Shown here: positions 19,023 to 30,231 of the stretch, piece after piece
How the letters are laid out: each line of letters opens with the position of its first letter
Numbering within the stretch: position 1 is the first letter of the stretch
Assembly: GCA_016282685.1 (NCBI GenBank)
Contig: JAEELM010000039.1
Coordinates: 1-32,757, forward strand
Source of the DNA: Elusimicrobiaceae bacterium
GTDB taxonomy: Bacteria; Elusimicrobiota; Elusimicrobia; Elusimicrobiales; Elusimicrobiaceae
Length of the DNA: 32,757 bases
Direction: 5' to 3'
Notes under the pieces: model-generated
Told to the model about the DNA's origin: nothing
Seen by the model: only the letters and a program-made list of their open reading frames with translations
Database searches by the model: none
Program-made: the position numbers and the translations under genes

Positions 19023-19874
19023 ATGCGGTTAAAAAATGCGTTTCTTAGTTTGCTATTACTCATCTGCCCGTGTGCGTTATGCTACGGGCAGGTCAGTTTT
19101 TCAAGCGTACATGGGGAACGCGGCTATTCCGCTTTGCGCGGTAGTTTTGCTCTGGATTTGGATAATGGATGGGTTTTGACTCCCTTGGTTGGGTATTACC
19201 GGCCTTCTGATTCGGAACAAGATGAAAAGGGATCTACTTCCCGCTACGGTTTGCGAACACGTTACGAGGTAACAGACACGGTCCAATTGTTGGGGGACTT
19301 TATATGGCACCCCAAAGCGATAGGTTATCAGGCCGTGTTATACCATGCGGGTGTGCGATGGGAGCCCTTTTATTATTGGAGGGGAATTAAAGCCCCTTTT
19401 CTGCGGGGGAGTGTTGGGCAGTCACGTTATCGTTCGTCTGTTAATGATAAAGGGGAATCTCTTTCACGGACTTTTCGAGAAGTAGAAACAAATGTTCAAC
19501 TGGAAACAGGAGCGGAACGAAAAAATTGGCACTTGAAAGCCCAGTGGAATAAAGTGTTAAAATATAGTGAACCGTTGGCGCAAGACATGTCTTTTAGTTG
19601 GGCTGATTTTCCTTATCTGTCTGCTGTCGTACAGGGGTTTGTAAAAGAAGCCGCTGCTTTGCAGACAAGTTACACAACCGATTTGTTGGCCCCCTATGCA
19701 GGATTAGTACGTTATCGTTATGCCCAAAAAGAGCAGGATGCTTTTGCAATAATGGCTGGATTACGTTTTAAATTATGGGGAGCTTCTTTTTTAGGGGGTA
19801 TAGAAGTGTTTGAACCCCGGCGGGAAGAAAACCGCAAGACATTTTTTTCATTATCCGTAGAGGCTGAACTGTAA
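19023..19874 (+). CDS. Probable outer-membrane beta-barrel protein, unknown function
   Basis: This 283-residue protein starts with a Sec signal peptide (a Leu-rich core and probable cleavage after CYG, residue 22, before QVSFSS). The remaining sequence alternates polar and hydrophobic residues with many aromatics, as in amphipathic beta-strands (for example WVLTPLVGYYRP, SRYGLRTRYEV, AIMAGLRFKLWG). It ends FFSLSVEAEL. This suggests an outer-membrane barrel, although the last residue is Leu rather than the usual Phe. No lipobox is present. The ATG follows the preceding stop directly (TAAATG) with no ribosome binding site, so its translation is probably coupled to the deoxyhypusine-synthase-like gene. 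The family is not recognised. Confidence 0.7.
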   Translation: MRLKNAFLSLLLLICPCALCYGQVSFSSVHGERGYSALRGSFALDLDNGWVLTPLVGYYRPSDSEQDEKGSTSRYGLRTRYEVTDTVQLLGDFIWHPKAIGYQAVLYHAGVRWEPFYYWRGIKAPFLRGSVGQSRYRSSVNDKGESLSRTFREVETNVQLETGAERKNWHLKAQWNKVLKYSEPLAQDMSFSWADFPYLSAVVQGFVKEAAALQTSYTTDLLAPYAGLVRYRYAQKEQDAFAIMAGLRFKLWGASFLGGIEVFEPRREENRKTFFSLSVEAEL

Positions 19875-28189: not shown

Positions 28190-28750
28190 ATGGCATATCT
28201 CTTGGTGGGGCTGGGAAATCCCGGTGCTGAGTACGAACGTACACGCCACAACGCAGGTTTTCGGGTGGTGGATGCGGCCGGACAAAAATGGGGCGCCGAT
28301 TGGAAAGACTGGCAAAAACTGGGAGTATATGCAAAAGTGTCCGTTTGCGGACAAGAGGTTTTTTTACTAAAACCTTTTACGTATATGAATGAATCGGGTC
28401 GGGCTGTTTCCAGCCTGGCCCGGTTTTATAAAATCCCGTCTCAAAATTGTTTTATTTGCTTTGATGATGTGTCTTTGGAAGTAGGCAAAATCCGCTTGCG
28501 TCGCAATGGTTCCGCAGGGGGCCAGAAAGGTATGAAAAGCGTGATTGAGCAACTGGGCACCCAAGATTTGCCCCGCCTGCGTTTGGGCATTGGGCCTAAA
28601 CCGGAAAAGTTTGACCTTGTAAATTTTGTGTTGGGTCGTTTTTCCGGCGAGGAAGAAAAAACGCTAACCTCCACTCTTCCCCGCGCTGTAGATGCGCTGG
28701 AATGCTACCTTACCCATGGCATCGAGAAAGCCATGAATCAGTTTAATTAG
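28190..28750 (+). CDS. pth: Peptidyl-tRNA hydrolase
   Basis: Pth frees tRNA from prematurely released peptidyl-tRNA. The 186-residue protein has all family blocks: GLGNPGAEYERTRHNAGF with the catalytic His, KPFTYMNESGRAV with the substrate-binding Asn, CFDDVSLEVGKIRLRRNGSAGGQKGMKSV, and LRLGIG near the end. It starts 3 bases after rplY. Its last 8 bases overlap the end of the convergent PH-domain gene. Confidence 0.96.
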   Translation: MAYLLVGLGNPGAEYERTRHNAGFRVVDAAGQKWGADWKDWQKLGVYAKVSVCGQEVFLLKPFTYMNESGRAVSSLARFYKIPSQNCFICFDDVSLEVGKIRLRRNGSAGGQKGMKSVIEQLGTQDLPRLRLGIGPKPEKFDLVNFVLGRFSGEEEKTLTSTLPRAVDALECYLTHGIEKAMNQFN

Positions 28751-29372
28751 TTTTCGTTTGTAACTCTTTAAGGAGTTCGTACACGCGTTGAAAATCCGGA
28801 ATATCGGTTATTTCGGTATTTTTTTGTTGCGTGTTTGTCTTTCTGAAATTTTTTGCCGGTATCGATATAGGTAAAGGCGAGATAGATGTATCTTGCGTTT
28901 GAGATAATACAATGTCTCCCACTCCTAACCATTGATCAATCATTCCGCGGTGAATAGCTATTGTTCGTACTTCTTTGATAGGAAGAGTATGAAATGTTTG
29001 TGCAAAAATTCCGCCTGACGTATAGACACATTTATCGGTGAGGATAAATTCTGTGTGGCGGTGGCGGCGAAATGAAAATACAATGCCGCCTAGATAAATC
29101 CAAACCGGCATCAAGTGGAGCGCAAAAAAACCACACATAGCCACTATACCCACCGTCGGGAAAGTGGCATGTTTATCAGACATCAAAAGAGAGCTGACAA
29201 AAAATGCATCAAACAATGCCCAAACAAGAGCGAAAGGTAATAAGGGATTAAAAATAGTTTCTAAAATAAAACATTTGAAATTAGGTTTACCGGACCATAA
29301 GATGTTTTCATCACTACTGATCATGCTGTATAAAACGGAAGGATAGTAGTTTGTTTTTTCCGTCGGAATCAT
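28743..29372 (-). CDS. Bacterial PH-domain (YdbS-like) membrane protein
   Basis: This 209-residue protein has two hydrophobic hairpin segments (about residues 34-60 and 70-100) followed by a bacterial PH (DUF304/YdbS-type) domain. The domain reads RRHRHTEFILTDKCVYTSGGIFAQTFHTLPIKEVRTIAI, with a later QWLGVGDIVLS that is typical of these domains. The N-terminal LYSMISSDENILWSGKPN is the usual lead-in. The C-terminal helix follows a polar linker. Function in this family is generally unknown. The first Met was preferred because GAGAGAG lies about 10 bases upstream on the minus strand; the Met at residue 17 has none. Upstream lies a structured element with its own promoter (29430-29525), which may control it. 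Confidence 0.8.
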   Translation of the reverse strand: MIPTEKTNYYPSVLYSMISSDENILWSGKPNFKCFILETIFNPLLPFALVWALFDAFFVSSLLMSDKHATFPTVGIVAMCGFFALHLMPVWIYLGGIVFSFRRHRHTEFILTDKCVYTSGGIFAQTFHTLPIKEVRTIAIHRGMIDQWLGVGDIVLSQTQDTSISPLPISIPAKNFRKTNTQQKNTEITDIPDFQRVYELLKELQTKTN

Positions 29373-29429: not shown

Positions 29430-29491
29430 AAAAAAGGAACCCAGGCTCTACTAGGAGCATACGCTTTAAACGCGTCTCAATGGGTTCCTAT
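29430..29491 (-). ncRNA. Putative structured small RNA or leader attenuator
   Basis: On the minus strand a perfect 9-bp outer stem AGGAACCCA/TGGGTTCCT (29481-29489 with 29435-29443) encloses two hairpins. These are ACGC/GCGT with a 7-base loop (29461-29475) and GCTC/GAGC with a 6-base loop (29445-29458). Five more T residues follow the outer stem (29434-29430). A promoter-like sequence directly upstream would start the RNA within a few bases of the fold. The product would be about 60 nt, or the leader of the PH-domain gene that starts 58 bases downstream. It is not a tRNA (no T-arm or anticodon arm of correct size). No known family was recognised. Confidence 0.5.
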
Positions 29492-29497
29492 ACCCAT

Positions 29498-29525
29498 ACT
29501 ATAATGATATTTGTAAAAATTTCAA
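29498..29525 (-). promoter_or_regulatory. Promoter of the minus-strand structured RNA / PH-domain gene
   Basis: On the minus strand, TTGAAA (29520-29525), a 16-base spacer and TATAGT (29498-29503). Predicted start of transcription is near 29491, immediately before the folded element. Confidence 0.55.
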
Positions 29526-29543
29526 GGCCTAATTTTAAAAATT

Positions 29544-29598: not shown

Positions 29599-29670
29599 GG
29601 TGCGGTGGCCAAGTGGTAAGGCGAGAGTCTGCAAAACTCTTATTCGTGGGTTCGATTCCCACCCGCACCT
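29599..29670 (+). tRNA. tRNA-Cys (GCA)
   Basis: A full cloverleaf of 72 nt: acceptor GGTGCGG/CCGCACC, D stem GCC/GGC, anticodon stem AGAGT/ACTCT with loop CTGCAAA, T stem GTGGG/CCCAC with TTCGATT. The discriminator is U, as expected for Cys. The CCA end is not encoded. Confidence 0.96.
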
Positions 29671-29811: not shown

Positions 29812-29840
29812 TTGCATATTTTGGTTCAATTTGATATAAT
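29812..29840 (+). promoter_or_regulatory. Promoter followed directly by a terminator-like hairpin
   Basis: TTGCAT (29812-29817), a 17-base spacer and TATAAT (29835-29840) give a strong promoter match. The predicted start near 29847 lies only a few bases before the hairpin at 29853-29868. Confidence 0.6.
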
Positions 29841-29852
29841 AATTTTGTAGAG

Positions 29853-29874
29853 GACCCCTACGGGGGTCGTTTTT
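29853..29874 (+). terminator. Promoter-proximal hairpin with T run
   Basis: The stem GACCCC/GGGGTC with loop TACG is followed by GTTTTT. An alternative pairing GTAG (29848-29851) with CTAC (29858-29861) would exclude it. Confidence 0.65.
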
Positions 29875-29932
29875 ATCGGTATTTAGGGTACAACAGAGAG
29901 AGAAAAATCTTTCGTGTTCCGTGAATTTTTTG

Positions 29933-30046: not shown

Positions 30047-30119
30047 GCTGGGGTAGCTCAGTCGGTAGAGCATTTCCATGGTAAGGAAAAGGTCGTGGGT
30101 TCGATTCCCACTCCCAGCT
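30047..30119 (+). tRNA. tRNA-Thr (GGT), copy 1
   Basis: A 73-nt cloverleaf: acceptor GCTGGGG/TCCCAGC, D stem GCTC/GAGC, anticodon stem TTTCC/GGAAA with loop ATGGTAA (anticodon GGT), T stem GTGGG/CCCAC. CCA is not encoded. It is identical to the copy at 30159-30231. Confidence 0.96.
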
Positions 30120-30158: not shown

Positions 30159-30231
30159 GCTGGGGTAGCTCAGTCGGTAGAGCATTTCCATGGTAAGGAA
30201 AAGGTCGTGGGTTCGATTCCCACTCCCAGCT
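30159..30231 (+). tRNA. tRNA-Thr (GGT), copy 2
   Basis: This is an exact 73-base repeat of copy 1; the flanks differ. A hairpin CCGCC/GGCGG (about 30134-30152) lies between the two copies and may guide processing. The tRNA sits 48 bases before tuf, the same arrangement as tRNA-Thr before tufB in Escherichia coli. Confidence 0.96.

Follow-up and report, generated by a model that had tools for sequence, protein, structure and literature searches.

A putative stand-alone gene for a three-armed small RNA in one genus of gut Elusimicrobiaceae

The locus and its predicted fold

The window analysed here is a stretch of 32,757 nucleotides from an Elusimicrobiaceae bacterium (contig JAEELM010000039.1). 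Between a gene for a bPH_2-domain membrane protein (hereafter the PH gene) and a divergent tRNA-Cys gene, its minus strand carries a promoter, a compact inverted-repeat structure and a run of U (Table 1). From comparative analysis, we consider it very probable that positions 29430-29525 (minus strand) constitute an independent gene for a three-armed small RNA of about 60-65 nt, which has its own promoter and represents a new RNA family.

Table 1. Positions of the RNA gene, its parts and its neighbours in the window
Feature	Position	Strand	Basis or remark
-35 box TTGAAA	29525-29520	-	read directly; CTTGA in 54 of 54 homologues
-10 box TATAGT, 16-nt spacer from the -35 box	29503-29498	-	read directly and promoter scan
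Conserved element AAAATTAGGCC, immediately upstream of the -35 box	29526..29536	-	homologue consensus
Predicted small RNA transcript, about 60-62 nt, both ends inferred	29430..29491	-	covariance model match 29493-29429
P1, 5' strand AGGAACCCA	29489-29481	-	sequence, fold, homologues
P1, 3' strand TGGGTTCCT (also given as UGGGUUCCU)	29443-29435	-	sequence, fold, homologues
P2 hairpin ACGC-GUUUAAA-GCGU	29475-29461	-	sequence, fold, homologues
P3 hairpin GCUC-CUAGUA-GAGC	29458-29445	-	sequence, fold, homologues
U run after P1 (T5; T6 counting the last stem base)	29434-29430	-	makes P1 intrinsic-terminator-like
bPH_2-domain membrane protein gene, outside the RNA gene	28743..29372	-	PF03703, E 2.4e-10
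tRNA-Cys (GCA), divergent neighbour conserved beside the RNA gene	29599..29670	+	

The outer stem P1, a perfect 9-bp helix separated from the -10 box by 8 nt, encloses two hairpins; the first base of the PH gene, 29372, lies 57 nt beyond the U run. The original prediction had described a minus-strand promoter TTGAAA-N16-TATAGT and a perfect 9-bp stem with two hairpins and a U run; both are present, at 29525-29498 and 29489-29430, respectively. The two inner hairpins are there as described, but each has only 4 bp, and the outer stem therefore carries most of the fold. The fold energy is -22.5 kcal/mol, compared with -12.3 ± 2.65 kcal/mol for shuffled sequences (z = -3.85), and none of 200 shuffles was as stable.

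TTGAAA-N16-TATAGT is the top promoter-like site of the region in the promoter scan, with a score of 10/12. In this AT-rich stretch, the scans alone yield numbers near chance, with 7 promoters against 4.6 expected and 4 terminators against 2.6 expected. Because they are not clearly above chance, the case for an RNA gene rests on conservation across genomes. In a DNA search, other genomes of the genus matched the promoter side of the element, ahead of tRNA-Cys. Direct reading of those regions revealed the same three-armed RNA with an altered sequence.

Conservation of the fold and the promoter

A covariation check on homologues, suggested together with the original prediction, found changes on both sides in 13 of the 16 base pairs among 54 distinct homologues, and the small RNA reading stands. 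In the same set, 95.5% of the cells are paired (P1 97%, P2 96% and P3 92%), slid structures reach at most 69% and none of 500 shuffles reaches the observed value, with the limitation that the alignments (A4 and A5) were fitted to the structure of the model and are biased in its favour. Because of this fitting, each homologue was also folded alone. These single-sequence folds, which are independent of that bias, gave the three-way junction in 51 of 54 homologues, as opposed to 338 of 3240 shuffles. As a modest strand test, G-U cells (43) outnumber C-A cells (18), which agrees with an RNA on the minus strand.

Two other features were considered and set aside. Kissing between the P2 and P3 loops, judged by eye in A4 and A5, is feasible in one clade (UUUUA with UAAAA) and not in others, and is not claimed. 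A small open reading frame was also rejected; the homologues range from 65 to 74 nt in length, their indels do not come in threes and no frame is open in all of them.

The promoter is present in 54 of 54 aligned homologues as CTTGA and a -10 box with a spacer of 16 or 17 nt. The -10 box is TATACT in 45 homologues, TATAGT in five and another variant in four. Its distance to P1 is 7-10 nt in all 54 and exactly 8 nt in 50 of them, which places the expected start of the transcript at the fold. Conservation extends upstream of the -35 box, where the consensus is (A)AAATTAGGYCTTGA, with A at -9 and -8 in 52-53 homologues and GG at -3/-2 in 49-50; in most of the 54, AAATTAGGY(C) precedes TTGA. At the other end, P1 runs straight into a U-rich tail in most homologues (5-7 T within 8 nt). 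A second strong terminator lies within about 35 nt in 33 of 54 homologues. In the window and in the closely related G053 (L193), the first terminator stands alone.

The resemblance of the P1 stem and U run to a terminator would also fit a mere intrinsic terminator or insulator placed between tRNA-Cys and its neighbours. Such a role is scarcely credible for the whole element, because a dedicated promoter 8 nt upstream, found in 54 of 54 homologues, would be superfluous for a terminator, and two internal hairpins kept with compensatory changes are not expected of a plain one.

Distribution and gene neighbourhood

Nine relatives, with the window left out, supplied the sequences for a covariance model (R1), which recovered the window element at E 2.5e-6. 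A rebuilt model that includes the window (R2) recovered it at E 7.4e-12. R1 found the RNA in 57 of 66 genomes of the genus, essentially as a single copy in each, and in 36 of 36 genomes with completeness of at least 90% and contamination of at most 5%. A second R1 match occurs in G056 alone (L190, E 0.006); we took it as a chance match, as the locus has no tRNA and the better model R2 does not report it. At a laxer cut-off, R2 gave a few weak second matches (best E 0.004), whereas the main copies all reach E 2e-10 or lower. Of the nine genomes in which the RNA was not found, seven also have no tRNA-Cys in the assembly. In G019, the tRNA-Cys sits at a contig end, and in G016, the tRNA-Cys is present and the RNA is absent.

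Outside the genus, R2 searches of 24 genomes from five further Elusimicrobiaceae genera yielded nothing credible (best E 0.046), and the RNA was not seen beside tRNA-Cys in the sampled sister genera. A phylum-level sample had matches in the genus alone, plus one weak match (G266, E 0.006). The best reading of these searches is an RNA family that does not extend beyond a single Elusimicrobiaceae genus, whose members are animal-gut bacteria. This genus is probably Candidatus Avelusimicrobium.

The constant neighbour of the RNA is tRNA-Cys, which adjoins almost all copies, mostly in divergent orientation. No gene or pathway is constant downstream across the homologues; the neighbours differ and the orientation flips. 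In 38 of 54 homologues, the next downstream tRNA on the same strand is the tRNA-Gly or tRNA-Thr of the tuf cluster, 139-928 nt away, so read-through into the tuf-cluster operon is possible in those 38. This arrangement would suit a leader or attenuator of the tRNA-Gly-tRNA-Thr-tuf operon that senses EF-Tu or tRNA. We regard this role as very unlikely, because the RNA lies elsewhere than upstream of the tRNA-Gly-tuf operon in at least 13 of 54 homologues, a second terminator hairpin follows it in the 33 homologues noted above, and the loci that were read show a separate TATAAT for the tRNA-Gly unit. The RNA is inverted between the two tRNAs in L161, L164 and L187, and it is followed by other genes or by tRNA-Cys in the window and in L193, L144, L150, L162, L168, L180, L159, L151 and L166. 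Since its orientation is flipped in several genomes, it is not a fixed leader of tRNA-Gly/tuf.

As one of two options, the original prediction had proposed a ligand-sensing leader of the PH gene. In the form of a 5' leader that senses a ligand or a protein, this reading draws on the P1 stem and U run, which could attenuate the PH gene, and on the order of the genes in the window, G053 and G051, where RNA and PH gene are co-directional and the RNA comes first. It fails because the PH gene occurs in merely 4 of 66 genomes and is missing from 62, whereas the RNA occurs in 57. Moreover, in G008 (L012) the PH gene lies across tRNA-Cys, downstream of that tRNA and not of the RNA, and in G051 an extra GC-rich hairpin separates the RNA from the PH gene. 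Elsewhere, the RNA precedes tRNA-Gly or unrelated genes. A leader of this kind is therefore extremely improbable. The other option, an independent small RNA, is strongly supported, as the gene, its promoter and its fold are kept throughout the genus with compensatory changes.

Several further features of this region were observed. The bPH_2-domain gene, wherever found in its four genomes, is near tRNA-Cys and can be described as sporadically present at a tRNA site that is itself conserved. On the plus strand of the window, at 29835-29880, a short hairpin GACCCCTACGGGGGTC plus GTTTTTATCGG lies just past a TATAAT-like box, upstream of tRNA-Gly-Thr-Thr-tuf. A similar hairpin is found in L011 and L012, and it may serve the tuf operon as a leader or attenuator. 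Two tandem tRNA-Thr (GGT) genes of equal length and score precede tuf in the window (30047-30119 and 30159-30231, plus strand), and in L011 the second tandem tRNA is a low-scoring tRNA-Ser (GCT)-like gene.

Possible action and comparison with known RNAs

We propose that a sigma-70-type promoter with an extra element (AAATTAGGYC before TTGA) would set the transcription start at the outer stem or a few nt away from it. As it emerges, the RNA would fold into the three-way junction, and the outer stem together with the U run would end transcription. The product would be compact, about 60-65 nt long; in many relatives, a back-up terminator would act downstream. The RNA would then presumably act in trans on a putative partner. 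Its presence as a single copy in every well-assembled genome of the genus and its rigidly conserved promoter suggest that it is likely to be important to the cell.

There is about an even chance, judging from the pattern of conservation, that a protein or another partner recognizes the specific shape of the RNA. A tentative variant, which we hold to be possible, is a trans-acting antisense RNA that pairs with mRNAs through the U-rich P2 loop, the P3 loop or the first junction strand. An own promoter, a strong terminator and a U-rich 3' end and loop are typical of many base-pairing small RNAs, and the present RNA has all of them, its U-rich P2 loop being conserved. On the other hand, there is no long invariant unpaired stretch, and the few conserved unpaired bases are scattered (A16, U43, A70 and the A-N-G of J2/3). 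Shape recognition is tentatively favoured over an antisense RNA with a fixed seed because the helices are kept by compensation, whereas the unpaired stretches are short and mostly variable by clade. The transcript and any partner can now be sought at a defined locus, and the covariance model is ready for annotating these poorly studied gut bacteria.

No Rfam 15 family was found at the RNA, either at the gathering score or, credibly, at permissive E-values, in keeping with the earlier remark that the fold matched no riboswitch family that could be named. We also found no paper on the RNA in the literature. 6S RNA is an independent non-coding gene with its own promoter, and the present RNA resembles it in this respect. 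6S RNA (RF00013) is about 180 nt long with a central bubble, whereas the present RNA is about 62 nt and three-armed. A search with RF00013 found nothing in the genome. The idea that the present RNA is the missing 6S or SRP RNA was rejected, as its fold is unlike either.

A second unannotated conserved RNA of about 170 nt was observed on the minus strand of G000:C20 at about 19050-19268 (L002), and also in L006, L008, L217 and L226. It shares the promoter element (..TTGA..TATAxT), has the core GUCCUUGGUUGCAGUUGU...GAUUGCGUGAAGACCCGGAU and the terminator GGGGGUUUAUUUU, and gave no credible Rfam match. It is possibly a 6S-like RNA of this lineage.

The small SRP RNA (RF00169) is likewise a small RNA found in nearly all members of its group, and its model does not match the present RNA. 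In searches restricted to RF00169, neither the 66 genomes of the genus nor 20 relatives belonging to other genera or to a different family of the order gave a small SRP RNA above the cut-off, and the controls were detected. This absence agrees with the report that few Elusimicrobia have homologues of the SRP system (PMC7987157). Since RF00169 is also absent from sampled sister-genus genomes that do not have the present RNA, the latter is no obvious SRP substitute. A bolder reading, which we think improbable, is that the RNA forms the core of a previously unrecognised ribonucleoprotein with a housekeeping role in this gut genus. In this reading, both it and the RNA of about 170 nt would be expressed from one special type of promoter, in bacteria that lack a recognisable SRP RNA.

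Among RNAs of comparable architecture, the dauA motif is a small riboswitch candidate with a three-stem junction that was likewise proposed on the basis of comparative genomics (PMC11109978). It includes the Shine-Dalgarno sequence of a constant downstream gene, whereas the present RNA has no constant gene downstream. Lineage-restricted candidate RNAs, such as Bacteroides-1 (RF01694), Chlorobi-1 (RF01696) and Clostridiales-1, were described by Weinberg et al. in 2010 as doubtful or unlikely cis-regulators (PMC2864571). These differ from the present RNA, which matches no Rfam 15 model, in both sequence and structure, but they resemble it in being short structured RNAs that are limited to one lineage and supported by compensatory changes.
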